Virus record (IMG/VR): IMGVR_UViG_3300017917_001112
Location: 62,001-126,000 of that record
Strand: one strand, 5' to 3'
Length of the DNA stretch: 64,000 nt
Source: a virus
In this document: positions 5,101 to 59,395 of the stretch, piece after piece
Layout: every line of letters starts with the position of its first letter
How positions within the stretch are numbered: position 1 is the stretch's first letter
The notes under the pieces: model-generated
Told to the model about the DNA's origin: nothing
Databases searched by the model: none
The model's input: the letters and a program-made list of their open reading frames with translations, nothing else
Program-made: the position numbers and the translations under genes

Positions 5101-5861
5101 ACCCTTCATATGTTACGAACTACACATCAACAATCAACGCAGTATTAAGTTTGCGTGTTGCGCCATCAGTCGATAATGGTGCTTCTGGTGTTCTTGGATT
5201 AAAAGAAATTGTTAATCGCATGCAGTTGACACTACGTTCTATTGGTGTTACATCGAATGGTGCGTTTTTCGTTCGTATTATTTTAAATCCAAGATTTATT
5301 ACAAATGCACCAACATTCCAAAACGTAGGTGGTTCTTCATTATCACAAGTCGTTTACCATCCAAATGGAACACAAATTACTGGTGGTGAAACAATTTTTG
5401 CGTTCTATACTGACCAAGGTGGTGGTGGATTAAACTACACAGTTACAACTGCTGAACTTGATAAAGTTCGCGATCTTGGAAACTCAGTTCTTGGTGGTGG
5501 TTTGACAAACACATTAACATTGAACTCAAACGTGAATATCTATCCAGATGGTCCAGATATTCTTACAATTTGTTGTTCTAACGTACTACAACCAATTACT
5601 GTTTCACCAACAACAACAACTTCTGGTTCTCCAATTGTAGTTATTAATGATGTAACTGGTTTTGAGCAAGGTTGGGTTGTTTCGTCATCTACAGGTGGTA
5701 CTGCTACTGGTGGTATTGTCAAAACCATTACTGCTAGATCTGGTGGTGGCTATGATGTGGCGTTTTCTAAAAATGCTACCTCTGGTACGAATGGTACTGT
5801 TGTTCTATCCCCTCCAGGAAATCTTGCTGCTCGTATTTCATGGACAGAAGCACAGGCATAA
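2184..5861 (+). CDS. Large virion structural protein (multi-module fibre/baseplate-associated)
   Basis: A 1225-residue beta-rich protein immediately upstream of gp13, where marine T4-like phages usually encode a very large structural protein. The middle carries the recurrent module with IPQSQW...RCDG...FTLDL...GAGAIRFGF...YMRSGNLPARYE (about residues 655-735). A small FPNSG...EYVQYSSKTATTF module follows, then the C-terminal HWGTSVIMDGR/IVNRMQ/IYPDGPD/WTEAQA domain shared with the protein at the left edge. Compared with that paralogue it has an extra 70-residue Gly/Thr/Ser insertion (about residues 1137-1210) just before the terminus. It is expressed from the late box at 2146. Attachment or adhesion is inferred. 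Confidence 0.8.
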   Translation: MAKKVLTEQYYTFTPATRIVIIPKAIQRENLVLITNVTQNKVIYNFSDPNLTATSYTVNNGVTTITLNYNTTTMSSSDSLQFVYDDSVQEIIPAETYQDPVQKMRMSTPQSLIDTDFEYGTQPTKWENISLLNGRPSFYVDLQSPIAISDIQATNGSKNIIVYANYNSGTGNATTSTTSTIVTGAGTNFLSTIFPGYALYNSSDTLIGIVSTVETDTSLTLQSNAAVNQVTSAFRFAPQRIPDVGSPIQIQESLFTAANGGYLIELTTPVIASSRWEIRYRASANFPGTTGSIFNTGITTTYAGSFYTNSQIAISSAAAFSATAAGSPANDIVVVITTTRDHGLTLGNLVYLTGAATISTGTNPGGTSYTVMAVYSPRKFGVLMAAGSNVPTITAVGTLSCYVRNESTFAHRPFDGGVRFSTNTQSHNYQALRQTRRYFRYQSGKGIQFSTGSVLRPNFTLDTISSVGNIATATSKEPHNLQPGISINISGATEPGLSTSAYNGNFTVLDVNNEFDFTYQMASTPSVTTAFGFPIVGATGWYGAGIRVGMFDQNNGFYFEYDGQNLTAVRRNSTTQLSGLVSVTNGSDEVNSVTSLGTGKQTKFLKQLAPGDWISIKGMSYRVMEVINDLRIRINPEYRGATISGGVVNKINEVRIPQSQWNIDRCDGYGPSGFTLDLNKMQMIYCDYAWYGAGAIRFGFKDQEGRIIYCHRIVNSNVNAEAYMRSGNLPARYETHTFAPYTYITQTFTSGASTLTVNSTEGFPNSGVLLIADPGRTSADAALTGGSPGGADYYEYVQYSSKTATTFTVTQRGAGLGMNGATIAGYRSDYFNTGGGTVATVNGSNTVTTSKGFAQNSIGNALNMAPIGAFVTGTNIPENTYITGFNSSASTIELSQACTGTGNITNFNVYAASSNANGTNNSGTTHTYDTDGPVIPVFLHTNQFAPTANHWGTSVIMDGRYDDDKSLVFTAGNPSYVTNYTSTINAVLSLRVAPSVDNGASGVLGLKEIVNRMQLTLRSIGVTSNGAFFVRIILNPRFITNAPTFQNVGGSSLSQVVYHPNGTQITGGETIFAFYTDQGGGGLNYTVTTAELDKVRDLGNSVLGGGLTNTLTLNSNVNIYPDGPDILTICCSNVLQPITVSPTTTTSGSPIVVINDVTGFEQGWVVSSSTGGTATGGIVKTITARSGGGYDVAFSKNATSGTNGTVVLSPPGNLAARISWTEAQA

Positions 5862-5864
5862 ACT

Positions 5865-6617
5865 ATGGCTGCTCCAACAACAAGAGATACATTTACAGAC
5901 TACTGTCTGAGAAAACTTGGTCATCCAGTTGTCGAAATTAACGTAGACGATGACCAAGTTTCCGATCGTATTGATGAAGCATTGCAATTTTATCAAGAGT
6001 TTCACTACGATGGTGTTGAAAGAATATATCTAAAACATCAAGTTACTTCCTCAGACATAAGCAATGGTTACATACCACTTACAGATTTAATTATTGGTGT
6101 TCGAAATATTTTTCCTTTTTCTGGAACAACAACCAGTGGTACAGCCGATGGATTGTTTAATCTTCAATATCAGTTGCGCCTAAATGACTTATATGATTTA
6201 ACAAACACATCTTTAGTTTACTATAATACTGTTCGTGATTATATTGCAATGTTAGATTTGTTATTAAATGGAGCAAAACCATTACGCTTTAATAAACACC
6301 AAAATCGTTTATACATTGATATGAAGTGGGCTGATGAAGATATTGAAGGTAAATGGATTATCGTTGACTGTTATCGTGCTATGGATCCAGCTACATGGGC
6401 TGATGTTTGGAATGACATGTGGTTAAAAAGATATGCTACTGCTTTAATCAAAAAACAATGGGCAACCAACATTAAGAAGTTCTCAGGTCTTCAACTTCCA
6501 GGTGGTGTTACTTTAGATGGCGACAAACTATACGAAGAAGCAAGCTCTGAGATAGAAGAATTAGAAAAACAAGCACAAGATACATTCTCTCTGCCACCAG
6601 ATTTTATGATGGGTTAA
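5865..6617 (+). CDS. gp13: Neck protein gp13
   Basis: A 250-residue protein with the conserved gp13 N-terminus RDTFTDYCLRKLG followed by INVDDDQVSDRIDEALQFYQ, a signature shared by gp13 of T4-like marine phages. In T4, gp13 and gp14 form the neck that closes the filled head and receives the tail. It is somewhat shorter than T4 gp13 (about 309 residues), as in cyanophages. It starts 4 nt after the large virion gene and is followed directly by gp14, the classic order. Confidence 0.93.
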   Translation: MAAPTTRDTFTDYCLRKLGHPVVEINVDDDQVSDRIDEALQFYQEFHYDGVERIYLKHQVTSSDISNGYIPLTDLIIGVRNIFPFSGTTTSGTADGLFNLQYQLRLNDLYDLTNTSLVYYNTVRDYIAMLDLLLNGAKPLRFNKHQNRLYIDMKWADEDIEGKWIIVDCYRAMDPATWADVWNDMWLKRYATALIKKQWATNIKKFSGLQLPGGVTLDGDKLYEEASSEIEELEKQAQDTFSLPPDFMMG

Positions 6618-6618
6618 G

Positions 6619-7344
6619 ATGCCAAAAAATGTTTACTTTACACAGGGAACAAAAAGCGAACAGTATCTTTTAGAAGACTTGATTGTTGAGTCGCTAAAGA
6701 TATATGGACAAGATGTTTATTATATTCCCAGAACACTGGTCAATAAAGATCCAGTGTTAGGAGAAGATGTTCTATCTAAATTTGAAGCAGCATATGACAT
6801 CGAGATGTATTTCGAAGATGTCGATGACTTTCAAGGACAGGGCACATTTTTACAAAAGTTTGGTATTGAAATTGAAAAATCAGCTACTCTTGTTGTTGCT
6901 CGTAGACGTTGGGAGCAGCTAATTGGTCGTCATGGTGTAACAAGAATACCTTCTCGTCCAGCAGAAGGCGATCTAATTTATTTCCCCCTAACAAAGAAAC
7001 TTTTTGAAGTTCGTTTCGTTGAACATGAGGATCCATTTTATCAAATCGGTAAATTGTATGTGTTCAAATTAAGAATTGAAACATTCCAGTATGCTAGTGA
7101 GCGTATTGATACAGGAATCGCTGAGATTGATACTGTTGAGGACACATACTCTTACGATCAAGATATGATTCGTGCAGAAGATGGTGAATTTATTGAAGGT
7201 GAACAAACTGATGAAGAATATGCACTTGAAACTGAATCTGATCCAACTAAAGATGTCGGCGATAATTCAAGATATGACACTGAGGGAACTGGTCTTGTTG
7301 ACTTCGATGAATCAAATCCATTTGGTGAGGTAAAGAATGCTTAA
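6619..7344 (+). CDS. gp14: Neck protein gp14
   Basis: A 241-residue protein starting MPKNVYFTQGTKSEQYLLEDL, with IYGQDVYYIPR and a YDIEMY/FQGQGTFLQKFGIEI segment characteristic of T4 gp14. It builds the neck with gp13. The C-terminal third is very acidic (about residues 175-235). Its end overlaps the gp15 start by 8 nt, indicating translational coupling. Confidence 0.93.
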   Translation: MPKNVYFTQGTKSEQYLLEDLIVESLKIYGQDVYYIPRTLVNKDPVLGEDVLSKFEAAYDIEMYFEDVDDFQGQGTFLQKFGIEIEKSATLVVARRRWEQLIGRHGVTRIPSRPAEGDLIYFPLTKKLFEVRFVEHEDPFYQIGKLYVFKLRIETFQYASERIDTGIAEIDTVEDTYSYDQDMIRAEDGEFIEGEQTDEEYALETESDPTKDVGDNSRYDTEGTGLVDFDESNPFGEVKNA

Positions 7345-21813: not shown

Positions 21814-22374
21814 ATGACGGAAACAACAACAAAAGAAAAAGCGCATTATGTGAATAATGCCGATTTCTTAGCAGCAATAAAAATATACAGACAGAGTGTA
21901 CTAGATGCTGAGGCATCTGGTGATGAGAAACCTCGTGTTCCCGAATATATTGGGGAATGCTTGATGAAAATAGCAACACACCTGTCTTATAAATCCAATT
22001 TTATCAATTATACATACAGAGAAGATATGATTCTTGATGGAGTCGAGAACTGTCTTCAGTACATTGACAACTTTGATCCAACAAAATCTAGTAATCCATT
22101 TGCTTATTTTACGCAAATTATTTACTACGCATTTATCCGAAAAATCCAAAAAGAAAAGAAACAAACTTATGTCAAAAACAAGATGATTCTTGAAATGCCA
22201 TTTGAGATGTTTGATCTACAAGAACAAGACGAAGATGGTGAGTGGACGAATCAAATGATGGAATATTTGCGTAGTAATAATGATTCAGATTATAATATGC
22301 CAAAGAAGAAACCAGCAAAGAAAAAAACCAAAAACAATCTCGAGAGTTTTTTGGGAGATGAGAATGGAAGTTGA
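21814..22374 (+). CDS. gp55: Late transcription sigma factor gp55
   Basis: 186 residues, the size of T4 gp55 (185). Recognisable blocks are AHYVNNADFLAAI, the sigma region 2-like YREDMILDGVENCLQYIDNFDP, and NPFAYFTQIIYYAFIRKIQKEKKQ. Near the C-terminus is NNLESFLGD, resembling the hydrophobic/acidic patch with which T4 gp55 binds the gp45 clamp. It directs RNA polymerase to the TATAAATA boxes seen in this window. Confidence 0.94.
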   Translation: MTETTTKEKAHYVNNADFLAAIKIYRQSVLDAEASGDEKPRVPEYIGECLMKIATHLSYKSNFINYTYREDMILDGVENCLQYIDNFDPTKSSNPFAYFTQIIYYAFIRKIQKEKKQTYVKNKMILEMPFEMFDLQEQDEDGEWTNQMMEYLRSNNDSDYNMPKKKPAKKKTKNNLESFLGDENGS

Positions 22375-42556: not shown

Positions 42557-42603
42557 GATTATACATATTAATGTACCCATTTGAATTGAAGGAGAACCAA
42601 CAA

Positions 42604-43263
42604 ATGAAACTATCTAAAGACACACAAAATTTACTTAAGAACTTTGCATCTATCAACTTGAATTTGCTTTTGCGTGAGGGAAACAAACTCTCAACTATGA
42701 GCGAAAACAAAACAATCATTTCTGAAGTTACTGTTGCTGAACAGTTTCCGCAGAATTTTGGAATCTATGATGTAAATGAATTTTTGGCTGTGTTGACATT
42801 GTTTAATGATCCCGATTTGGCATTCAGTAATGATGTTGTAACTGTCAAAGAAGGCAAGAATCAAATCGTTTACAAAGCAGCAGAAGAAAGCACTTTGAAA
42901 ACACCAAGTAAGTCTATTCAATTCCCAGAAGCAGAGATTAATTTCTCACTGTCTGCTGCGGATCTAGAACACATTATCAAATCAGCAGGTATTCTTAAAG
43001 TTTCTGACGTATCATTTATCGGCAGAGATGGTAAGTTAGTTGCTCTGGTCATCGATAAGAAAAATCCTCTAACAAATAAATTTGAAATTGATGTTGGCAC
43101 AACAGATAAAACATTCCAAGCAAACATGAAAATTGAGAATTTTAAGATGTTGCCTGGATCGTATAATGTATCCATCGCAAAAATGAAAATCTGTCGTTTC
43201 AAATCAACAACCAATGATTTAACATATTACGTAGCAGTAGAATCTGATTCAACAGCTGAGTAA
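42604..43263 (+). CDS. gp45: Sliding clamp gp45
   Basis: 219 residues (T4: 228). MKLSKDTQNLLKNFASIN is close to the T4 start, and LPGSYNVSIAKMKICRF and YYVAVESDST match the C-terminal end. The trimeric clamp tethers gp43, activates late transcription through gp55, and is the probable docking site for the C-terminal LDEFFA-type tails in this window. RBS AAGGAG. Confidence 0.94.
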   Translation: MKLSKDTQNLLKNFASINLNLLLREGNKLSTMSENKTIISEVTVAEQFPQNFGIYDVNEFLAVLTLFNDPDLAFSNDVVTVKEGKNQIVYKAAEESTLKTPSKSIQFPEAEINFSLSAADLEHIIKSAGILKVSDVSFIGRDGKLVALVIDKKNPLTNKFEIDVGTTDKTFQANMKIENFKMLPGSYNVSIAKMKICRFKSTTNDLTYYVAVESDSTAE

Positions 43264-43279
43264 TTGAAGGGATTATATT

Positions 43280-44221
43280 ATGAGTCGTGATGAATTTTTA
43301 TGGTGCGAGAAGTATCGCCCAAAAACTATCGATGAATGTGTTCTTCCGCAACAACTGAAGGATACTTTTAAAGAATATATAAAGAACGGACAACTTCCAA
43401 ATTTTATTTTTTCTGGAAGCGCAGGTGTTGGTAAAACAACAGTTGCACGTGCATTGTGTAATGAACTTGGAGCAGATTATCTTTTTATCAACGGATCGGA
43501 AGAGAGAGGTATCGATGTATTACGAACAAAAATTAAAAGTTTTGCCTCGTCTGTTAGTCTCACAGAGGCAGGAGCAAAAGTCGTCATCCTTGATGAAGCC
43601 GACTATCTCACGCCAGACACACAAGCAGCCCTGCGTGCTTTTATCGAAGAGTTTTCCAACAACTGTAGATTCATCCTTACCTGCAACTTCAAAAACAGAA
43701 TCATCACTCCACTCCACAGTCGATGCTCAGTAGTTGAGTTTCGTATTGAGTCGGCTGAGAAACCTAAGATTGCTGCGAATTTCTTTCGCAGGATTGTAGA
43801 TATTCTCAACGCAGAGAGTGTTGAATCTGATAATAAAGTTGTAGCGAAAGTTGTTGAGACATTCTTTCCAGACTTCCGTAGAGTTCTAAACGAACTTCAG
43901 CGTTATTCTGTTGGTGGTCGTATCGACACAGGTATCTTAGCAAATCTTTCTGATGAATCCATGAAAGAATTACTCGGTTATCTAAAATCCAAAGATTTTA
44001 TGAAAGCAAGACTGTGGGTTGCAAAGAACAATGATATTGAGACATCTGTATTGTTCCGTAGACTTTATGACACAGCAGCAGATTTTCTTGAACAATCGTC
44101 TATTCCAGTTTTAATTTTAACTCTGGCAGATTATCAGTACAAGGCAGCATTTGTGGCTGATGTCGAGGTTAATAATGTTGCTGCGTTGATGGAGATTATT
44201 GCTAATTGTAAATTCAAGTGA
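43280..44221 (+). CDS. gp44: Clamp loader large subunit gp44
   Basis: A 313-residue AAA+ protein: EKYRPKTIDECVLP, Walker A GSAGVGKT (46-53), Walker B VVILDEADYL (101-110) and SRC motif LHSRCSV (about 145-151). With gp62 it loads gp45 onto primer-template junctions. The translation-initiation region (GGGATTATATTATGAGT) is a likely RegA target, by analogy with T4. Confidence 0.95.
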   Translation: MSRDEFLWCEKYRPKTIDECVLPQQLKDTFKEYIKNGQLPNFIFSGSAGVGKTTVARALCNELGADYLFINGSEERGIDVLRTKIKSFASSVSLTEAGAKVVILDEADYLTPDTQAALRAFIEEFSNNCRFILTCNFKNRIITPLHSRCSVVEFRIESAEKPKIAANFFRRIVDILNAESVESDNKVVAKVVETFFPDFRRVLNELQRYSVGGRIDTGILANLSDESMKELLGYLKSKDFMKARLWVAKNNDIETSVLFRRLYDTAADFLEQSSIPVLILTLADYQYKAAFVADVEVNNVAALMEIIANCKFK

Positions 44222-44228
44222 GGTTTAT

Positions 44229-44612
44229 ATGACACCATTTGATTTTATTAATTCCATCAATCAAACAAAAGATGCTAACATAATTAAGGAACCACAGGCT
44301 GAGAAAGACTACAAAGCATTCATTATTAACAGGGGTCTAGCATACTTCCCAGACACTGTTTTACAAGCCAACGAAATGAATCGTCGTCCATGGACTCCAA
44401 GGGACTGGCAATTTTCGTTTTTGCTAAATAGTATTACCAAGAAAAAACGATTCAGTAAATGGGCTGAAAAACTGCCCAAGAACGAAGACTTGGACTTGGT
44501 TATGCAATACTATGATTATAGTAAACAAAAAGCAATGGCTGTTCTGAACTTATTGACACCAGAGCAGTTGGCTATGATAAAACAAAAATTCGAAAAAGGT
44601 GGAAGACTATGA
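44229..44612 (+). CDS. gp62: Clamp loader small subunit gp62
   Basis: 127 residues, similar in size to the short gp62 of cyanophages and shorter than T4 gp62. TPFDFINSINQTKD, NRGLAYFPDTVLQANEMN and QYYDYSKQKAMAVLNLL match family patterns. Position between gp44 and regA confirms it. Confidence 0.9.
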   Translation: MTPFDFINSINQTKDANIIKEPQAEKDYKAFIINRGLAYFPDTVLQANEMNRRPWTPRDWQFSFLLNSITKKKRFSKWAEKLPKNEDLDLVMQYYDYSKQKAMAVLNLLTPEQLAMIKQKFEKGGRL

Positions 44613-49832: not shown

Positions 49833-52340
49833 ATGGAATTTTACACAAATGTTTTTCCCATGGGCAACAAGTTATGCGTCCGTGGGTACAGCAATGGTTT
49901 GCCGTACAAAGATAAGATAGATTTTCGCCCAACCCTTTACGTCTCGTCACCAAAGAAACATTATAGTGGCGAGATTTTTCGCACATTAGATGGTCAAGTT
50001 CTTTACGAAATCCAACCTGGATCTATCAAAGACACACGTGAATTTATTGATCGATATAAGGGTGTTGAAAGTTTCCCTGTTTATGGTAACACAAATTACG
50101 CATACCAATATATCTCGGACACATATCGCTCAGAAATTAAATTTGATAAAGATTTAATTAAGTGTTTCTCCATTGATATCGAAACAGCAACAGAAAGTGG
50201 TTTCCCTGATATTGAAACTGCTAATGAAGAGGTATTGTTAATTACATTAATGGACAATAAGACAAAAGAGATTCATACTTTTGGTCGTAGTCCTTACACA
50301 GGAAACAAGGAAGTTATTTTCCATCATGTTGAAAATGAAAAACAACTTCTCGTTGAGTTTCTAACATTCTGGAAAGATAATTGTCCAGACATCGTTACTG
50401 GTTGGAATATTGGTTTCTTTGATATTCCATATCTAGTTAGACGCATCATGGTTTTGCTTGGCGAGTCACATGCAAAACAACTATCACCATGGGGTATTAT
50501 CAACGAACGTCGTATTCATGTTAAAGGTAATGAAGAGATTACGTACGACATTGCTGGTGTTTCTGCACTTGATTATATTGATTTATACAAAAAGTTTACT
50601 TACTCAATGCAAGAATCTTATCGTCTTGATCACATTGCATTTGTTGAACTTGGCGAAAACAAACTAGACTATTCTGAGTATGATTCATTTAAAGATTTTT
50701 ATACTCATGGTTGGAAGAAGTTTGTTGATTACAACATTCACGATACTGTTCTTGTTGACAAACTTGAAGACAAGATGAAATTGATTGAGTTGGCTATCGT
50801 TATGGCATATAACGCAAAGGTAAATTTCGATGATGTGTTTTCACAGGTAAGAATGTGGGATACGATTATCTACAATCACTTGCGTTCCAAAAACATTGTT
50901 ATCCCAAACAAAACTAACAATGAGAAAGACAATGTTATTGAAGGTGCTTATGTTAAAGACCCACTTACTGGATTTCACAAGTGGGTTGTCTCATTTGACT
51001 TGAACAGTCTTTATCCGCATTTAATTATGCAGTATAACATTTCACCAGAGACTTTAATCCAAGATTACAAACATATTGGTGGTGTTGGGTATTTCTTAGA
51101 ACATGAGGAGCAAGGTGGATTTAAAGATCTAGATTATGCTTGTACAGCGAATGGTTATTGCTATCGCAAAGACATCAAAGGATTTCTGCCTGAACTGATG
51201 GAAAAAATGTATGCTGACCGAAGTAAAGCAAAGAAACAAATGCTTGCGATTCAACAGCAGTATGAGAACACCAAGGACGCATCGCTAAAGAATGAGATTT
51301 CAAGATTGAACAATTTGCAGATGGCTTTGAAGATTGCTTTGAACTCTGCTTATGGTGCGTTGGCTAATCAATATTTCCGTTATTATGATAAACGCATGTC
51401 TGAGGGAATTACGACTTCTGGTCAGTTGTCTATTCGTTGGATCGCAAATAAATTTAACGAATATTTTAACAAAGTAATGGGAACTGAGAAAGAAGATTAT
51501 GTGATTGCTGTTGACACAGATTCTGTCTATCTTAGATTTGGACCATTGGTTGATTCTTTGTTTAGTCAGGAAGAACAGAAAGACAAAGATAAGATTGTTA
51601 AGTTTATTGACAAAATCTGTGAGGATAAAATACAGAAGTACATTGATAAGTGTTATTCTGAATTGGCAAAGCGTCAAAATGCTTATGATCAGAAAATGAT
51701 TATGAAGCGTGAAGTTATCGCAGACATGGGAATTTGGACTGCTAAAAAACGCTATGTTCTCAATGTGCATAACTCTGAAGGTGTGCAATATGCGCAACCC
51801 AAGATGAAGATTATGGGTCTTGAGATGGTTAAGTCTTCAACACCAATTGTTGTTCGCGACAAGTTGAAGGAAGCATTGAAGATTGTGATTGCTGGCGATC
51901 AACTAGAACTGCGTAAGTTTATCACTGATTATCGTAAACATTTCTATTCGTTGCCTGTTGAAGAAGTTGCTTTCCCAAGAAGTGTGAACAATCTTAAGGA
52001 ATATTATGACTCTACTACCATTTATCGTAAATCGACACCGATTCATGTCCGTGGTGCTTTGATGTTTAATCATATTATCAAAGAAAGAAATCTTACGAAC
52101 AAATATCAGCCAATTAAAGAGGGTGACAGAATTAAATTTATCTATCTTCGTGAGCCGAACACTATTCGTGAAGATGTAATTACATTCGCAAATGAATTAC
52201 CAAAAGAGTTTGACCTACATAAATACATAGATTATGAGAAGCAGTTTGAGAAAGTTTTCCTTGACCCATTAACCGCAATTATGGATTCTATCGGATGGAC
52301 AGTTGAAGAAAAGAACACTCTTGAAGATTTCTTCGCATAA
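49833..52340 (+). CDS. gp43: DNA polymerase gp43 (family B)
   Basis: 835 residues (T4 898). Proofreading exonuclease motif IDIET (Asp115/Glu117), later YNIHDTVL, polymerase motif A DLNSLYPHLIM (about 388-398), motif B KIALNSAYGALANQ and motif C DTDS (561-564). The last residues, LEDFFA, form a clamp-docking tail like the C-terminal peptide by which RB69/T4 gp43 binds gp45. The same tail closes two downstream modification enzymes. Confidence 0.96.
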   Translation: MEFYTNVFPMGNKLCVRGYSNGLPYKDKIDFRPTLYVSSPKKHYSGEIFRTLDGQVLYEIQPGSIKDTREFIDRYKGVESFPVYGNTNYAYQYISDTYRSEIKFDKDLIKCFSIDIETATESGFPDIETANEEVLLITLMDNKTKEIHTFGRSPYTGNKEVIFHHVENEKQLLVEFLTFWKDNCPDIVTGWNIGFFDIPYLVRRIMVLLGESHAKQLSPWGIINERRIHVKGNEEITYDIAGVSALDYIDLYKKFTYSMQESYRLDHIAFVELGENKLDYSEYDSFKDFYTHGWKKFVDYNIHDTVLVDKLEDKMKLIELAIVMAYNAKVNFDDVFSQVRMWDTIIYNHLRSKNIVIPNKTNNEKDNVIEGAYVKDPLTGFHKWVVSFDLNSLYPHLIMQYNISPETLIQDYKHIGGVGYFLEHEEQGGFKDLDYACTANGYCYRKDIKGFLPELMEKMYADRSKAKKQMLAIQQQYENTKDASLKNEISRLNNLQMALKIALNSAYGALANQYFRYYDKRMSEGITTSGQLSIRWIANKFNEYFNKVMGTEKEDYVIAVDTDSVYLRFGPLVDSLFSQEEQKDKDKIVKFIDKICEDKIQKYIDKCYSELAKRQNAYDQKMIMKREVIADMGIWTAKKRYVLNVHNSEGVQYAQPKMKIMGLEMVKSSTPIVVRDKLKEALKIVIAGDQLELRKFITDYRKHFYSLPVEEVAFPRSVNNLKEYYDSTTIYRKSTPIHVRGALMFNHIIKERNLTNKYQPIKEGDRIKFIYLREPNTIREDVITFANELPKEFDLHKYIDYEKQFEKVFLDPLTAIMDSIGWTVEEKNTLEDFFA

Positions 52341-52345
52341 AAACT

Positions 52346-52374
52346 TGCCTTTAAATACGACATATACTAAAATT
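52346..52374 (+). promoter_or_regulatory. Sigma70-like promoter (TTGCCT/TAAAAT)
   Basis: TTGCCT, 17 bp, TAAAAT in the gap between gp43 and the gene at 52399. Weaker -35 than the others but the same spacing. Confidence 0.6.
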
Positions 52375-52398
52375 ATATTAGAACACTAGGAGAAAGAC

Positions 52399-52644
52399 AT
52401 GACACAAGAAAATGAATTTCCGTCAATCGAAGACGTAGAAATTAAAACAACATCATTGAACAACTTGCCCCCAAAAGTAATTTGTGAAAAACATGGAGAA
52501 CTTAATGACGCATATGTGTTTAGAGTAAACATGCCAGAGTTTGGATATGAAAAAAAAACATATTGTTTAGTATGCGCAATCGAGTATCTTTCTATGATTG
52601 CTAATGAGGTTACATTCGAAGAACGTGAGGGAGAAACAAAATGA
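52399..52644 (+). CDS. Small hypothetical protein with paired Cys
   Basis: 81 residues. PPKVICEKHGELNDAYVFR and KKTYCLVCAIEYL give C-x2-H and CxxC, a possible treble-clef zinc site. RBS TAGGAGAAAG. Overlaps the uvsX start. Function unknown. Confidence 0.65.
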   Translation: MTQENEFPSIEDVEIKTTSLNNLPPKVICEKHGELNDAYVFRVNMPEFGYEKKTYCLVCAIEYLSMIANEVTFEEREGETK

Positions 52645-53699
52645 GTTTTCTAAAAGATATTGTAAAGGAGCTTGATAATGAATATGCGGGACTGGCTGAT
52701 GATGGTGTTGTTGGTGATACATCTAATTTTATCGACACTGGTTCTTATACCCTTAATGCTTTGCTCTCTGGTAGCATCTTTGGTGGTCTACCTGGGAACA
52801 AAGTTACAGCTTTGGCTGGTGAGTCTTCCACAGGAAAGACATTCTATGCTCTTGGGATTGCGAACAATTTTCTTCGAACTGACGACAAGGCTGGAGTCAT
52901 TTACTTTGAAACAGAAGGAGCGTTGACTAAAGATATGCTCGCTGAGCGTGGCATTGATACTAAACGATTTATGATTGTTCCTGTGTCAACTGTTCAAGAA
53001 TTTAGAACTCAAGCATCTAAGATTCTAGATGCGTATGAAAAAACATCAAAGAAAGATCGCCCACCATTGATGTTGTTTTTAGATTCTCTTGGTATGCTCT
53101 CTACTTCTAAAGAAATGGAAGATACACTTGAGGGTAAAGATACTCGTGATATGACTCGTGCTCAATTGATTCGTGGCGCATTCCGTGTTCTTTCATTGCG
53201 TCTTGCTAAACTCGATGTCGCTATGGTTGTTACGAATCACACATATGCAGTTGTTGGTGCTTATATGCCAACCAAAACTATGGGTGGTGGTGACGGATTA
53301 AAGTATGCTGCTTCAACGATTGTTTTTCTTTCTAAGTCTCAGGACAAAGATGGAACTGAAGTTGTTGGTAATATCATTAAATGTAAACTTGAGAAATCTC
53401 GTTTTACACGTGAGAAGTCTATGGTTGAAACTAAACTTTCCTTTACTAAAGGATTAGATCGTTATCATGGTCTAGCAGATTTGGCTGTTGAAGCAGGAAT
53501 CTGGAAATCGCAAGGTGGACGAATTGAAGTACATGATGGTAGAAAAGTTTTCGGTAAAAACATTGCAAACAATCCTTCTGACTTCTTCACCGAAGACATC
53601 CTAAAGCAACTTGACATTTACTGTAAATCAAAGTATAATTATGGTTCAGATGATGTTGTTCAACAAGAAGAAGTAGAGGAAGAATTTAATGAGAATTGA
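52641..53699 (+). CDS. uvsX: RecA-like recombinase UvsX
   Basis: 352 residues. N-terminal SGSIFGGLPGNKVTALAGES, Walker A GESSTGKT (60-67), Walker B-like LMLFLDSLGML, VVTNHTYAVVGAYMPTKTMG (L2-like) and GGDGLKYAAS. Strand-exchange enzyme working with UvsY. Overlaps gp41 by 11 nt. It ends in an acidic tail. Confidence 0.95.
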   Translation: MSFLKDIVKELDNEYAGLADDGVVGDTSNFIDTGSYTLNALLSGSIFGGLPGNKVTALAGESSTGKTFYALGIANNFLRTDDKAGVIYFETEGALTKDMLAERGIDTKRFMIVPVSTVQEFRTQASKILDAYEKTSKKDRPPLMLFLDSLGMLSTSKEMEDTLEGKDTRDMTRAQLIRGAFRVLSLRLAKLDVAMVVTNHTYAVVGAYMPTKTMGGGDGLKYAASTIVFLSKSQDKDGTEVVGNIIKCKLEKSRFTREKSMVETKLSFTKGLDRYHGLADLAVEAGIWKSQGGRIEVHDGRKVFGKNIANNPSDFFTEDILKQLDIYCKSKYNYGSDDVVQQEEVEEEFNEN

Positions 53700-55071
53700 A
53701 AATCAAATTTTTACTAATTTGATAACTCAGGAAGCGTATGCAAGAAAGGTTATTCCTTTTTTACTTCCTGAGTATTTCATGGATCGTAGCGATCGTGTGA
53801 TTTATGAGGAATATAACAAATTCTTTTCGCAGTACAACACAACTCCAACTGTTGATGTGCTGAAGATTGAGATTAGCAACAGAAAAGATATTTCTGAAGA
53901 AGAAGTAAAAAAAGTTAACGAAACACTTGATACTCTTAGCGATGAACAAACTAATATTGATTGGATAACAGACAGCACAGAGAAATTTTGTAAAGACAAG
54001 GCAGTTTACAATGCTATCATCAACTCTATCAAAATTATTGAGGGCAGGGATAAAAATCACAACCAAGATGCGATACCTTCTCTACTTTCTAAAGCATTGG
54101 CTGTTACTTTTGATTCTCACGTGGGTCATGACTATTTGGAAGACAGTGATGCTCGCTATGATTTTTATCATAGGGTTGAAGAGAAAATTCCTTTCGATAT
54201 TGACTTGCTCAACAAAATCACGAACGGAGGACTCTCAAAGAAAACTCTAAACATTATTCTTGCAGGAACAGGTGTTGGTAAATCTTTGGCTATGTGTCAT
54301 TTCGCAGCATCATCTTTGCTTCAGGGTAAAAATGTGTTATACATAACTATGGAGATGGCTGAGGAGAGAATCGCAGAGCGTATTGATGCCAATTTGCTAG
54401 AGTTGACTATGGATTCTTTAAAGATGGTTGAGAAACGTGTTTTCGATGCTAGACTTGAAAAGATTCGCAATAAAACACATGGTAAGTTGATTGTTAAAGA
54501 ATATCCTACTGCTTCTGCCCACGCAGGACACTTCCGTGCTTTAATTGAAGAACTGCGTATGAAGCGTGATTTTACACCTGATATTATTTTTATTGATTAT
54601 CTTAATATCTGTTCTTCTCAGCGTCTTCGTATGGGAGCAAATGTAAACTCTTATACATATATTAAAGCGATTGCTGAAGAGTTGAGAGGATTGGCAGGTG
54701 AATATAAAGTGCCTTTGGTGAGCGCAACGCAAACTACTCGTTCTGGTTATGCTAACACAGATCCAGGACTTGAAGATACTTCAGAGTCATTTGGTCTGCC
54801 AGCAACAGCAGATTTGATGATTGCGTTGATTGCCACTGAAGAACTTGATCAAATGAATCAGATTATGGTTAAACAATTGAAAAATCGTTATTCTGATCCA
54901 AACTTCTATAAGCGTTTTGTTGTTGGCGTTGATAGAAAACAAATGAGATTATACAATGTTGAAATGAGTGCTCAACTACATATAGAGGGACAGGGAACTG
55001 TTTCTGATGATACGCCACTATTTGACGCAACGAAATTTGGCAAACGCATTAAGAGTGAAGCATTCGAATAA
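53689..55071 (+). CDS. gp41: Replicative DNA helicase gp41 (DnaB family)
   Basis: 460 residues (T4 475). N-terminal helicase-primase interaction domain (FTNLITQEAYARKVIPFLLP EYFMDRSDRVIY). RecA-type core with Walker A AGTGVGKS (about 192-199), VLYITMEMAEERIAERIDAN, and Walker B IIFIDYLNIC. ATQTTRSGY and LPATADLMIAL also match. It unwinds the fork with the gp61 primase, which is not in this window. Confidence 0.95.
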   Translation: MRIENQIFTNLITQEAYARKVIPFLLPEYFMDRSDRVIYEEYNKFFSQYNTTPTVDVLKIEISNRKDISEEEVKKVNETLDTLSDEQTNIDWITDSTEKFCKDKAVYNAIINSIKIIEGRDKNHNQDAIPSLLSKALAVTFDSHVGHDYLEDSDARYDFYHRVEEKIPFDIDLLNKITNGGLSKKTLNIILAGTGVGKSLAMCHFAASSLLQGKNVLYITMEMAEERIAERIDANLLELTMDSLKMVEKRVFDARLEKIRNKTHGKLIVKEYPTASAHAGHFRALIEELRMKRDFTPDIIFIDYLNICSSQRLRMGANVNSYTYIKAIAEELRGLAGEYKVPLVSATQTTRSGYANTDPGLEDTSESFGLPATADLMIALIATEELDQMNQIMVKQLKNRYSDPNFYKRFVVGVDRKQMRLYNVEMSAQLHIEGQGTVSDDTPLFDATKFGKRIKSEAFE

Positions 55072-55081
55072 GGAGAAAAAA

Positions 55082-56443
55082 ATGGTTCAGGTTATTGTAG
55101 CAGACAAACTTTATGATTCAGAACATCTACTTGGTATGTTCGTTGACGAATCGCATTATGATATTCTTATTGAAGAAGATACGGATTGTTATCTCCCAGC
55201 TGATTGCGATATCGCAACACAAGCGAATTGTGATAAAGATTGTTCTGCTTGTGATATTGGAGCCGATGAGCGTAGAATAGCATTTAAGTTTAGAAAGAAC
55301 TTCTTCTCAAAAGAAGAACAAGAACAAGCATATGTTGGTTTGCGTGAAGCAGCAGTTCGTACAGAAAATCGTGGATTGGCTTCAGGAATTAAAGCAGGAA
55401 CATCAGTAACAGGCGAAGGACGTGAGTGGGTTACTAATTATCAAGAAGAAATGATTAATGGAATTCTATCCTCAAGAACTGCTCAGTTGGTTGATGGGGA
55501 TATTATTTTAGAAATTCGAGAAAAATATCCAACACCAGAATCACGTTTGAAAGCATTGGGTTCTGGTAAGAACAATGTTTGGGTTATCTCACGTTTCCGT
55601 GGTAAATTTAATTTTGATGAATGGGTTGATTCAATCATTCCTTTAGATCGCGAAGCAAGAGCAAAAGCAACTGAAGAAGTTATGACAATGATTAGCGAAA
55701 CTTCTTATGGCAATCCAGTTGACTCAGGTATCGCAGGTTGGTTTGACAGATATCCACGTATTCCTTATGGTAGAGCAACAACATATACAAGAGATAATCC
55801 AGAAAAATTTGCTATGGCGTACCCATTTCTACAACATTTGGCAAAAGGATTTAAGGAGTTACTACCACAAAGATATGCTGCGCAAAAAGCAGCAACAGAT
55901 AAAATTGATCCAAGATTCGTAATTCCTGAGACACCATTTACTACTGTAACTGTTAACAAAACATTTAGAACTGCAGCGCATCGCGATGCTGGTGACTTTT
56001 CTGATGGTCTATCTAATTTGCTTACACTTTCTAATGATGGTAGATATACTGGTGGTTATTTGATTTTTCCAGAGATTCGTATAGCAGTTAATGTACGACC
56101 AGGAGATTTGCTTCTTGTGAATAACCATGAGGTAATTCATGGAAACACACCGATTGTTTGTGAAGAAGGTTCTGAGCGTGTTTCGCTGGTTGTTTATCTT
56201 CGTGAAAACATGTTAGAACTTGGTTCTTATGAATATGAAAATTCAAGATTCGAATTTGTTGAGTCACGCAGATTGAACAAAGAACATCCACTTTGGAAAA
56301 AATTGTGGAATGGTGTTTCTCCAGGAATGTGGGAAGAACAAGAATGGTACGACTTTTTAAAATCACGTCCGAATGGCGAACAAATGCTTGCGAAGTATCA
56401 CCCGAAAGCACTTGAAGCATCTCTAGATGAATTCTTTGCTTGA
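55082..56443 (+). CDS. TET/JBP-like 2OG-Fe(II) dioxygenase with clamp-docking tail
   Basis: 453 residues. The catalytic core matches phage TET/JBP pyrimidine hydroxylases: TAAHRDAGDFSDGLSNLL (His300, Asp302), YTGGYLIFPEIRIAVNVRPG, DLLLVNN then VIHGNTPI (His353), and RVSLVVYLREN (Arg366). The family oxidises 5-methylcytosine or thymine in DNA. An N-terminal Cys cluster (Cys36, 42, 50, 54, 57) may bind metal. The protein ends ASLDEFFA, resembling the gp43 terminus. RBS AAGGAGAAA. Together with the glycosyltransferase downstream it probably makes a glycosylated hydroxymethyl-pyrimidine. Confidence 0.85.
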   Translation: MVQVIVADKLYDSEHLLGMFVDESHYDILIEEDTDCYLPADCDIATQANCDKDCSACDIGADERRIAFKFRKNFFSKEEQEQAYVGLREAAVRTENRGLASGIKAGTSVTGEGREWVTNYQEEMINGILSSRTAQLVDGDIILEIREKYPTPESRLKALGSGKNNVWVISRFRGKFNFDEWVDSIIPLDREARAKATEEVMTMISETSYGNPVDSGIAGWFDRYPRIPYGRATTYTRDNPEKFAMAYPFLQHLAKGFKELLPQRYAAQKAATDKIDPRFVIPETPFTTVTVNKTFRTAAHRDAGDFSDGLSNLLTLSNDGRYTGGYLIFPEIRIAVNVRPGDLLLVNNHEVIHGNTPIVCEEGSERVSLVVYLRENMLELGSYEYENSRFEFVESRRLNKEHPLWKKLWNGVSPGMWEEQEWYDFLKSRPNGEQMLAKYHPKALEASLDEFFA

Positions 56444-56468
56444 CATTAATCTATATACATAGTAAAAT
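56440..56468 (+). promoter_or_regulatory. Sigma70-like promoter
   Basis: TTGACA, 17 bp, TAAAAT; the -35 contains the dioxygenase stop codon. Drives the modification-cluster genes at 56488 and 57326. Confidence 0.83.
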
Positions 56469-56487
56469 ATAGTTTTGGAGATTTAAT

Positions 56488-57321
56488 ATGGCATGGCAAT
56501 CAAGTTATTGGTCTTGTTCTAAATTTGCTGATTGGCTTCGTGGAACACCGAAGCCAGAAGCAGAAACAAGTAAAGGATGGCGTCTTTGGAGAGAAGCATC
56601 TGAGAAAGAACATCCATTTCGTTTTTGGTTGGCGGAAGAAGGACTTGATCACATTCAGGACTTCGTAACTTATCCAAGCAGAAAAGTAAACGATTTAATG
56701 TATTATTTGAATAATCGGTTTGTTACTAAAACGCATGCACTAACATCTCACCCTCGTGATATTCCTCGTGGCGAATGGCGAGATGTTGGTAATCGTTTTC
56801 TCCCCTGCCTGTTCAATGAACTTGTTGATTTTGTCGAGGTCGAACAAGCATGGCATCACTGTATGTGGGATGACAAAGCACGAAAAGAATTTAAAGTGCC
56901 TTGGACACGCAGGGGTTTTTTACGTCTTAGAACTTGGCGTTGTCCAGAAGCAGGGTTGTCTTATCTGAATTGGGCAAAGGATTTGACTAATGCTGAGTTT
57001 CTTGATGAAGATAAGAAACATGAAGCAGAGTTGACACATCAAGCACTTGCTGCTCGCGAGATTCTAGAACTCTATCACTGGTGGAAAGAAGTTTATTCAA
57101 AACGTCTAGATCCATACGATTCTAGTGGTTGGTCTGCTATTTGCGAGAGAGAACGCAAAGAAGGACGTGACTTACTTGACATGGAAGACAGAAACGAAAC
57201 AGAGCGTGAAGAGAGAAATAATTCTCTAGATCTTCTACGTAAAATAGAAGAAGAATACGAAAAGGAAGACGAAGAAATGATGATTCGTCTTATCAAAATC
57301 CGTCAATCACTGTGGACTTAA
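56488..57321 (+). CDS. Conserved Trp-rich phage protein of unknown function
   Basis: 277 residues. YWSCSKFADWLRGTPKPEAE, FRFWLAEEGLDHIQDFV, NNRFVTKTHALTSHPRDIPR and NRFLPCLFNELVDFVEVEQA W form a pattern I recognise from many large-phage hypothetical proteins. The C-terminus is a long charged helix (about 215-270). Lying between the dioxygenase and the glycosyltransferase, it could be an accessory of DNA modification, but it is also found outside such contexts. Confidence 0.72.
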   Translation: MAWQSSYWSCSKFADWLRGTPKPEAETSKGWRLWREASEKEHPFRFWLAEEGLDHIQDFVTYPSRKVNDLMYYLNNRFVTKTHALTSHPRDIPRGEWRDVGNRFLPCLFNELVDFVEVEQAWHHCMWDDKARKEFKVPWTRRGFLRLRTWRCPEAGLSYLNWAKDLTNAEFLDEDKKHEAELTHQALAAREILELYHWWKEVYSKRLDPYDSSGWSAICERERKEGRDLLDMEDRNETEREERNNSLDLLRKIEEEYEKEDEEMMIRLIKIRQSLWT

Positions 57322-57325
57322 ACAT

Positions 57326-58669
57326 ATGAAAATCTTAATGGTAATGCATACCTTCAATAACTTTGGAGGAATTATCAATCACTGCGAACATTTAATGGCA
57401 GGATTAAAAGAAATTGGTCACGAAGTAAATTTCGCATATCTTAAAGGCAACTCTACTGTAAGACCAGTTGAAATTCCTTCTAAACTTGCCGAAGGTTATG
57501 AGATTGGTATTGGTTCAGGTTATCCAGTGCACCAAGGTGATGGATGGATTGCGCCATACTATTCTTACAAAGTAAAAGAATCTGTTGACAAATTTGTTAA
57601 GACTGCCAATGAGCATGATATTGTGATTTGGCAGTCTATTTTTGGATTTAAAAACAAAGACACTGAGAAATACAAGGGTTGGTTGCCAATGGTTGAACAA
57701 GTCAAGGCAAAACAAGTTGTAATTATTCACGATGCTAATCTTAAAAAATTATATCCATGGATTTCTCTTTATGAAAAACATTTCGCTGGTCTTGCTTGCG
57801 TTCATCCTGCAGCATACGATTCAGCAGACTTTATGTCCACACCTCGAGCGTTAATTTTGAACCCTCAGGATATTGATGGCGTACCACCTACTCCAGAGTT
57901 TGCTGGTCGCGAAAACAAAATCTTGTCAATACAGACATTCAAACGCTGGAAGCGTGTGGACGACCTTATTCGTGCTGTTCCTTACATGAAAAATGTCAAG
58001 ACATTGGTAGGTGGTTATGGTATTGAGGCAGCATATATGATGTCGAAAGACAAGTGTAAAGACGAATACTTCGCAACAACACAATATGATCCAGACGTAA
58101 CACCTGACCGAGAAGGAAAGCGTATTTGGGAAAACGCTGAAAACTCAGGAAATTTTGAATATCTCGGTTTTATTTCTGGAGCGAAACGTGATGAGATTCT
58201 ACAAACATCTAAGTTTTTGGTTGACCCTTCTTGGAGCAATACTTTTGGTGAGCACTTCAATCGTGTTGTCGTGGATGCAATGCGGATTGGGACTGTGCCC
58301 ATTGCTGTAAATTTTGGTGTTTCCAACAACGAAGAAGGTAATGGAGTTTTGTTGAAGGCTGGTGAACACTATTGTATGCTCCGCAAGGATTTTACTCCAA
58401 AACAATATGGAGAAGCAATCGCTAACTTCTGTAATATGAGCGAATCCGACTACAAACGTATTCAGCTAAATAACTACGAACTAATCAAAAAGTTTGATCG
58501 AAAGGTAGTTGCTCAGCACTATATCGACTTGGCTATGGGTAAGGAAACAGGTTATCTAAACGAACTCAGAACCAAGACGAACCATGATCCATCTATTGTC
58601 CGAAATTCCATTAAAATGTTCGAAGAACACTTCGAACAGGCATCAGACTTGGACGAATTCTTCGCATAA
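57326..58669 (+). CDS. GT-B glycosyltransferase with clamp-docking tail (putative DNA glycosyltransferase)
   Basis: 447 residues. N-terminal Rossmann start MKILMVMHTFNNFGGIINHC. The C-terminal domain has IQTFKRWKRVDDLIRAV, LGFISGAKRDEILQTSKFLV and FGEHFNRVVVDAMRIGTVP, the GT4-like donor-binding region with the conserved acidic residues. It ends ASDLDEFFA, resembling the ends of the dioxygenase and gp43. Glycosylation of hydroxymethylated DNA is inferred from neighbours and tail; a surface-sugar role is the alternative. Confidence 0.82.
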   Translation: MKILMVMHTFNNFGGIINHCEHLMAGLKEIGHEVNFAYLKGNSTVRPVEIPSKLAEGYEIGIGSGYPVHQGDGWIAPYYSYKVKESVDKFVKTANEHDIVIWQSIFGFKNKDTEKYKGWLPMVEQVKAKQVVIIHDANLKKLYPWISLYEKHFAGLACVHPAAYDSADFMSTPRALILNPQDIDGVPPTPEFAGRENKILSIQTFKRWKRVDDLIRAVPYMKNVKTLVGGYGIEAAYMMSKDKCKDEYFATTQYDPDVTPDREGKRIWENAENSGNFEYLGFISGAKRDEILQTSKFLVDPSWSNTFGEHFNRVVVDAMRIGTVPIAVNFGVSNNEEGNGVLLKAGEHYCMLRKDFTPKQYGEAIANFCNMSESDYKRIQLNNYELIKKFDRKVVAQHYIDLAMGKETGYLNELRTKTNHDPSIVRNSIKMFEEHFEQASDLDEFFA

Positions 58670-58723: not shown

Positions 58724-59395
58724 ATGAATAAAGGTAAATTTTTAGCAAATTACCATGGGGATTTTGTAGATATTCTCAAGGTAGATTTACCAAGACTTGT
58801 TCCCAGTGTGTTGTGGGACAAACTAGACACATATCGAAATGACCCAGTGGGCATGAAGCGTTATTTGGCTAGACACCACAAGACTGTCCTCTATACAGAA
58901 AGATCCAAAAACAAAGAGTTTTATGTCTCTGGCGAGTTCGCCATGGACGAAGAGAAGATGCAACTGTTCACAGTTCGACCAAGATACTTTTCTGATAAGG
59001 CATGGGATGATTTCAAGTTTGAGGTAATTATTACATTGATGCATGAATATGTGCATTTCATGCAGTGGTTGTGTCATGAAGACAAATATGAGTGGATTTT
59101 AATTCACAAAGAACACTCTGATAAAAAACTACAAGAAGAGCGTGATTATTATGCAGCATGGGGAGAGATACAAGCGTATGCTCATTGCATTTTAATCGAA
59201 ATGAAAACCAGAAACATCAATAAACCAGCAGCCAAGATGTTGATGGCAAAAAGAGTTGGCTATTATTCACCAACACTGAAAACCATCAGAAAACAGTTCG
59301 ATGGATTTGATATACCAATTCGTTATCTCTACAGAGAAGTTTTGCGTTGGGAGAAGCGTTACGAACGCCATGCCGAGCACCTAAATATATCATAA
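58724..59395 (+). CDS. Putative zinc metallopeptidase-like protein
   Basis: 223 residues. LMHEYVHFMQW contains HEXXH (His107, Glu108, His111) and YYAAWGEIQAYAH supplies a downstream Glu148 suitable as third ligand, a gluzincin-like layout. No signal peptide, so it would act in the cytoplasm or in the virion. Target unknown. RBS AGAGGTGA. Confidence 0.7.
   Translation: MNKGKFLANYHGDFVDILKVDLPRLVPSVLWDKLDTYRNDPVGMKRYLARHHKTVLYTERSKNKEFYVSGEFAMDEEKMQLFTVRPRYFSDKAWDDFKFEVIITLMHEYVHFMQWLCHEDKYEWILIHKEHSDKKLQEERDYYAAWGEIQAYAHCILIEMKTRNINKPAAKMLMAKRVGYYSPTLKTIRKQFDGFDIPIRYLYREVLRWEKRYERHAEHLNIS
59380..59387 (+). promoter_or_regulatory. Late promoter variant CCTAAATA
   Basis: CTAAATATATCATAAAT overlaps the 3' end of the metallopeptidase gene, ~25 nt before the gene at 59412. 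Two alternative late-like boxes (CTAAATA and CATAAAT) are visible. It marks the switch to late structural genes. Confidence 0.55.

Follow-up and report, generated by a model that had tools for sequence, protein, structure and literature searches.

In this study, we analyzed a stretch of 64,000 nucleotides (bases 62001-126000, hereafter the window) of the 165,256-base T4-like virus record IMGVR_UViG_3300017917_001112 from IMG/VR, and found that three of its proteins, the DNA polymerase gp43, a Tet_JBP dioxygenase (TET) and a GT-B glycosyltransferase (GT), share a short C-terminal tail. This tail is very probably a portable peptide binding the sliding clamp gp45, which would hold TET and GT on the clamp that also serves gp43 and thereby expose newly replicated DNA to the two enzymes in turn. 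The three genes and their tails are as follows (window coordinates, strand):

49833..52340 (+): gp43, family B DNA polymerase (PF00136/PF03104); the alignment with RB69 gp43 reaches the last motif residues
52317..52337 (+): putative clamp-binding tail of gp43, TLEDFFA, aligning with the SLFDMF end of RB69 gp43
55082..56443 (+): Tet_JBP 2OG-Fe(II) dioxygenase (PF12851, 1.5e-23); the frame opens at 55007, and 55082 is the common start of the homologues
56420..56440 (+): clamp-type tail of the dioxygenase, SLDEFFA (20.3 bits; 127/141 homologues)
57326..58669 (+): GT-B (GT4-like) glycosyltransferase, putative DNA glycosyltransferase (PF00534, 8.3e-10)
58646..58666 (+): clamp-type tail of the glycosyltransferase, DLDEFFA (17.3 bits; 31/34 homologues)

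A shared C-terminal tail resembling known clamp-binding peptides

An earlier note on this DNA had described a common tail on the three proteins and stated that no other protein of the window ends in this way. Both points held when the open reading frames (ORFs) were read again: gp43 ends in EEKNTLEDFFA, TET in EASLDEFFA and GT in ASDLDEFFA (LEDFFA, LDEFFA and LDEFFA, respectively), and among 92 non-overlapping ORFs of the window no further end composed of a hydrophobic residue, an acidic residue, any residue and FF was found. The tail consensus was [S/T/N/D]-L-[D/E]-x-[F/L/M]-F-(G/A). Outside the window, the sole loosely similar end in the record belonged to a baseplate-hub protein (PF12322; G000:24723-25433, minus strand; ...GIDSFF), whose tail scored 1.3 bits vs. 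17-25 bits for the three window tails.

The tails are similar to peptides known to contact gp45. Specifically, phmmer aligned EEKNTLEDFF of the window gp43 with EKKASLFDMF of RB69 gp43 up to the end of the motif, and the last 11 residues of RB69 gp43 have been co-crystallised with gp45 (PMC2988020). According to the same review, the clamp-binding ends of gp43, gp55 and gp33 in T4 are hydrophobic and acidic, closely resemble one another and can be exchanged, the gp55 copy being placed on a variable linker (PMC2988020); the earlier note had likewise stated that gp43 and gp55 of T4/RB69 bind gp45 through such C-terminal peptides. The T4 ends read SLDFLFG in gp43, SLDFLYEAND in gp55 and KEQFDIITK in the alpha-glucosyltransferase (alpha-GT). 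A gp43-tail profile trained without the tail of the window gp43 gave 25 bits for this protein, 20.3 for TET, 17.3 for GT, 9.8 for RB69 and 13.6 for T4, and a gp45-type clamp is encoded in the window itself (42571-43263). The bacterial beta-clamp motif is QxxLF, and its Gln at the first position is absent from the window tails. Taken together, the alignment with RB69 gp43, the location of the motif behind a variable linker and the co-occurrence with gp43 tails argue for the clamp-type reading proposed earlier.

Census of C-termini and further carriers of the tail

We built a profile from 48 distinct gp43 tails alone and ran it against 12,204 distinct closed frames with a length of 80 residues or more. 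At a threshold of at least 10 bits, the profile matched 356 real C-termini and 2 shuffled ones, which rules out a chance origin of the shared tail. At 8 bits or more, the tail was detected in TET (127/141), GT (31/34), TET-associated glycosyltransferases (TAGT, PF20691; 31/36), Mom (37/38), D12 methyltransferases (34/42) and GNAT proteins (18/25), giving rates of 72-97% in these six enzyme families. At the same threshold, 4 of 63 amino acid:DNA transferases (ADDT, PF18724), 1 of 13 gp26 proteins and 10 of 11,243 unassigned frames reached the score, and gp45, gp46, gp41, gp47, UvsX, gp55, gp44 and gp23 together gave 0/427. All 80 gp43 homologues matched, a count that is not independent because gp43 tails trained the profile; likewise, the loci had been picked around these enzymes, so that the family counts should not be read as frequencies in a population. 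What is informative in the census is how rarely the remaining frames matched. Scanning of seven leftover matching frames assigned one each to TAGT, GNAT and an ADDT-like protein and three to nuclease types, and one was without a match. The survey of dioxygenase and glycosyltransferase homologues suggested by the earlier note thus recovered the tail in both families.

The tail is not peculiar to this phage or to TET and GT, the case considered in the earlier note. Within the first 135 loci, a strict tail was present in just three distinct other frames of 4,216, namely two TAGTs and one ADDT. All or almost all of the sequence of four further T4-like phages (DLP6, Cr30, C48C1 and Melnitz) and of four further T4-like IMG/VR records was also read, which yielded tails on the Mom protein of Melnitz (PF25680, 7.4e-49), the TAGT of Cr30, the D12 methyltransferase of C48C1 and a GNAT adjoining TET; the Cr30 TAGT tail, DLSKLF, resembles DLSSLF of Cr30 gp43. 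Among the relatives collected, distinct tails with the motif numbered 30/33 for TAGT, 27/29 for Mom, 31/38 for D12, 13/18 for GNAT and 16/56 for ADDT.

Furthermore, viral contigs were scanned for the DNA pattern [L/I/V/M/F][D/E]SFFG-stop with no enzyme reference, which gave at least 80 loci. Among the matches listed, 67 fell in frames with 60 residues or more, comprising 40 gp43, 4 TET, 3 GT and 20 other frames; of the latter, 16 were of the N6/N4 DNA-methyltransferase type (a direct scan of four placed two above the Pfam cut-off and two slightly below it; the remainder were assigned by shared sequence), three were GIY-YIG/T5orf172 proteins and one was unassigned. T4-type core genes were present in 16 of these 20 loci. 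The tail is therefore restricted to gp43 and mostly DNA-modifying enzymes, N6/N4 methyltransferases included.

Since searches blind to function recovered mostly the polymerase and known DNA-modification enzymes, unannotated proteins bearing the tail become candidates. For example, a 422-aa protein ending in GLESFFG (L631:8661-9929), encoded on a piece together with gp44 and gp45, showed a weak GT10-like match (E 0.028) and is a candidate new DNA-modifying enzyme.

Conservation, linker and predicted structure

The homologue sample comprised 80 TET loci and further GT loci from viral contigs, and almost all TET and GT homologues collected kept the tail. When 31 TETs and 29 GTs were aligned, entropies within the motif were 0.0-1.8 bits, with L and the final F at about 0.2 or less, and most linker positions just upstream showed 2-3.4 bits; the tail is thus conserved behind a variable linker in both families. 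Its final residue varied (A, G, V, S, T or none). In TETs the tail persisted to about 54% identity and was also found in those of DLP6 (48%) and C48C1 (42%).

Predicted models had mean pLDDT values of 77.5 (TET) and 86.6 (GT), and both ended in a short helix within a last block of low confidence (pLDDT 50 and 52, respectively). The TET alignment contained the invariant residues H300, D302, H353 and R366 (HxD...H plus Arg), and the top Foldseek structures for the dioxygenase model were CcTet, NgTET and TET2. The GT model was matched to GT-B enzymes, including T4 alpha-GT on hmU DNA (1y8z, E 2.1e-10). In Pfam, the window GT matched only PF00534 and PF13692, with no profile match to the TAGT family PF20691 or the T4 alpha-glucosyltransferase family PF11440, and the collection of phage isolates gave no match to it. 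We regard it as a putative DNA glycosyltransferase because of its gene neighbourhood, its tail and its fold.

Co-occurrence, controls and exceptions

In distinct pairs from the same locus, gp43 and the enzyme both carried the tail in 47/49 cases for TET, 21/21 for GT, 7/7 for TAGT, 7/7 for GNAT, 23/27 for D12 and 4/13 for ADDT. The tail was absent from the TET and Mom homologues checked in phages without detected gp43/gp45 or of non-T4-like groups: neither gp43 nor gp45 was found in the S-CBWM1, HTVC112P and P12024L records, and the TETs there had no tail. It was also absent from the Mom proteins of D108, PAN70, Enterococcus Max and Listeria LMSP-25 and from the Mom-like protein of cyanophage S-SSM7. 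Bacterial contigs contained just four TET relatives, none of which carried the tail at its end (0/4). Some of the TET relatives in isolates are labelled 'SNF2 DNA repair protein', namely those of DLP6 (L143), Cr30 (L144), S-CBWM1 (L159) and HTVC112P (L160); the Cr30 relative matched PF12851 at 8.4e-21.

Several observations weigh against clamp tethering. A few nucleases, GIY-YIG/T5orf172 and HNH/endonuclease VII-like proteins, bear clamp-type tails (nuclease-type carriers L571:3163-3774, L576:3252-3845, L614:6008-6601; L286:8326-8667; L481:9735-10175), and in most of the T4-like genomes inspected the gp26-type baseplate hub (PF12322) keeps an [ILM]xxFF-like end of loose similarity, as at L218:19088-19816. 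Conversely, the tail is missing from most ADDTs, from the TAGT of Aeromonas phage 65 and from four cyanophage Dam proteins, while three gp43s read there end in [AS][TS]LEFLFG-like sequences. The Cr30 TET (L144, 20001-21329) ends in GATLF without the tail, although gp43 and TAGT of Cr30 keep DLSxLF. The TET of L030 also lacks it; its stop overlaps the start of GT, whose tail is retained. A frameshift behind the loss in Cr30 was considered and rejected, as no tail was uncovered in the alternative reading frames; the DLP6 relative of this TET ends in ATLGDFFV. Tail-less homologues in phages whose gp43 has the tail were therefore rare for TET and GT but frequent for ADDT and cyanophage Dam, and because some modification enzymes of T4-like phages are without it, the tail appears to be gained and lost rather than being a by-product of the folds.

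Residue-level covariation of the tails is weak. Tail similarity within contigs, assessed with statistics that ignore relatedness, was significant for gp43-TET (p=0.009) and TET-GT (p=0.007), but not for gp43-D12 (p=0.98) and gp43-TAGT (p=0.48), so that covariation with the phage's own gp43 tail, raised by the earlier note, was recovered for TET and not for D12 or TAGT. In addition, a 2026 study of T4 indicated that expression rather than clamp contact mainly sets the share of alpha-glucosylation (PMC13216743), and the tail peptide is not the sole route to gp45, given that T4 alpha-GT binds the clamp without such a tail.

Proposed mechanism and target base

Carried on a flexible linker, the tail would allow both enzymes, dioxygenase and glycosyltransferase, to dock on the clamp that gp43 uses. 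Newly replicated DNA would meet TET first, which would hydroxylate the methyl group of the base, and GT would then attach a sugar to the hydroxylated base; this order is expected because of what the TET and GT families do. We infer that the tails physically bind gp45, that modification is coupled to replication and that the enzymes act in this order, and DNA may in this way be modified as it is synthesised, as the earlier note put it. In T4-like phages the same tag would have been attached to TAGT, Mom, D12 and N6/N4 methyltransferases, GNATs and some amino acid:DNA transferases.

Neither PF00145 (C5-methyltransferase; this record and 16 related records) nor PF00303 (thymidylate synthase/hydroxymethylase; this record and 6 related records) was found. 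Enzymes of these types would make 5mC or hmC; that neither was found in this record is an indirect hint at thymine as the target base, with a JBP-like route to 5-hydroxymethyluracil, over 5-methylcytosine. Neither D12 nor ADDT was found in this record. A related locus (L039:10001-15730) brings together TET, TAGT, ADDT and a P-loop kinase (PF18751), with the tail on the first three and not on the kinase, and this cluster suggests that there may be a TET-fed route of thymine hypermodification.

We lean slightly towards a broader rule, in which T4-like phages would use a detachable clamp tag for DNA modification in general, spread over at least seven unrelated enzyme kinds (TET, GT-B, TAGT, Mom, D12 and N6/N4 methyltransferases, GNAT and some ADDT), the clamp serving as an assembly platform during replication; phages without such a clamp may use the host beta clamp, as the QLEIF and QQTLF ends of P12024L would indicate. 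In this small phage (L161, JQ823123), in which gp43 and gp45 were not found, a TAGT ending in NQLEIF adjoins an N6/N4 methyltransferase ending in QQTLF (5595-6353 and 6355-6990), both ends resembling the bacterial beta-clamp motif, and the TAGT of a relative (L560:4001-4759) ends in NQTQLF. QxxLF-like C-termini occurred in 23 of the 12,204 frames. Convergent tethering of the P12024L TAGT and methyltransferase to the host clamp is possible on this basis.

Replication region and neighbouring genes

The gene order in the replication region is gp45, gp44, gp62, gp43, then UvsX, gp41, the Tet_JBP dioxygenase, a 277-aa protein and the GT-B enzyme. Other features of the window are:

22339..22353 (+): LESFL near the C-terminus of gp55 (...NNLESFLGDENGS), probable late-sigma clamp epitope; T4 gp55 ends in SLDFLYEAND
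42571..43263 (+): gp45 sliding clamp, presumed docking partner (PF09116, 5.2e-10; phrog_223, 1.8e-67)
43280..44221 (+): gp44, clamp loader large subunit (phrog_168, 3.3e-119); tail in 0/65 homologues
44229..44612 (+): gp62, clamp loader small subunit (PF16790, 4.2e-15)
56488..57321 (+): 277-aa protein between TET and GT, function not assigned, without the tail; conserved end ...SLWT/GLWT

The internal LESFL of gp55 had been pointed out in the earlier note and was seen again. The 277-aa protein had no match in Pfam or PHROGs. Located 3' of GT (58724-59395), a 223-aa protein contains a metalloprotease-like motif, HEYVH (HExxH); a Pfam scan gave no match, and homologues are present in many of the collected loci.

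Alternative explanations

The tails have a negligible chance of being a coincidence or a recent copy of the end of the gp43 gene. The three protein ends are almost identical and the last 12 bases are common to gp43 and GT, but the Leu and acidic codons differ among the three tails, which are therefore not recent DNA copies of each other; recent copying is ruled out by these differences, and the 356 real against 2 shuffled matches and the persistence in TETs to about 54% identity and in those of DLP6 and C48C1 likewise contradict this explanation. The tail might instead serve as a signal for degradation or solubility, or be a structural end that is conserved but has no partner; the conserved, loosely similar end of the baseplate hub gp26 could be cited in favour. 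We consider this very improbable, as the last residue varies, unlike that of an ssrA-like degron, and matches of at least 8 bits fall on gp43 and modification enzymes rather than on core proteins or, with a single exception in 13, on gp26. Hardly more probable is that the partner is a different component of the replisome (the clamp loader, the single-strand binding protein or the helicase): single-strand binding proteins too use short acidic-hydrophobic C-termini, but the motif equals that of gp43, whose T4/RB69 counterpart binds gp45.

A more serious rival accepts gp45 as the partner and places the recruitment later, on loaded clamps of late-transcribed or recombining DNA, as in the case of gp55. 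The interchangeable clamp tails of gp55 and gp33 in transcription (PMC2988020) and the finding that the T4 alpha-GT share is not mainly set by clamp contact (PMC13216743) are consistent with it; however, the T4 clamp has been described as unstable on DNA, with its role in late transcription coupled to ongoing replication (PMC2988020). We regard later recruitment as conceivable yet rather unlikely, and tethering to the clamp during replication as the better explanation.

Significance and comparison with known systems

Should the tails bind gp45, a large group of environmental phages would have replication physically linked to the disguise of their DNA, and this link could explain why host restriction and CRISPR do not overtake modification. 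In addition, the tail can be used as a finder for DNA-modification enzymes. The question of T4 alpha-GT, whose clamp binding is known and whose purpose in doing so is unclear, is also reopened. T4 alpha-GT binds gp45 in vitro and beta-GT does not; the contact was described in 2004 (Sommer 2004) and confirmed by pull-down (PMC13216743). Clamp-bound DNA glycosylation is thus not new in principle, which qualifies the reading of the earlier note; no mention of such a tail across modification enzymes was found in the literature surveyed, and the main phage TET-module papers, which lie outside this survey, may bear on the point.

Like the window GT, T4 alpha-GT is a phage DNA glycosyltransferase with a GT-B fold, and it binds the clamp; it belongs to PF11440 and its KEQFDIITK end has no such tail, so it must contact gp45 differently, whereas the window GT is tailed and does not match PF11440. 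The gp45-binding ends of T4/RB69 gp43 and gp55, and of gp33 as described, resemble the window tails in being C-terminal, hydrophobic and acidic, with an SL-x-x-[LM]-[FY] core; they are located on the polymerase and late-transcription factors, and the window tails also on DNA-modifying enzymes. As in the TET and TAGT hypermodification modules of phages, the dioxygenase of the window adjoins a sugar transferase, which is a GT-B enzyme here and a PF20691 protein there. Eukaryotic DNMT1 binds PCNA through a PIP box. It is similar to the proposed system in that a DNA modification enzyme relies on a short peptide to stay at the replication clamp, and differs in serving eukaryotic maintenance methylation with an unrelated peptide and unrelated enzymes.

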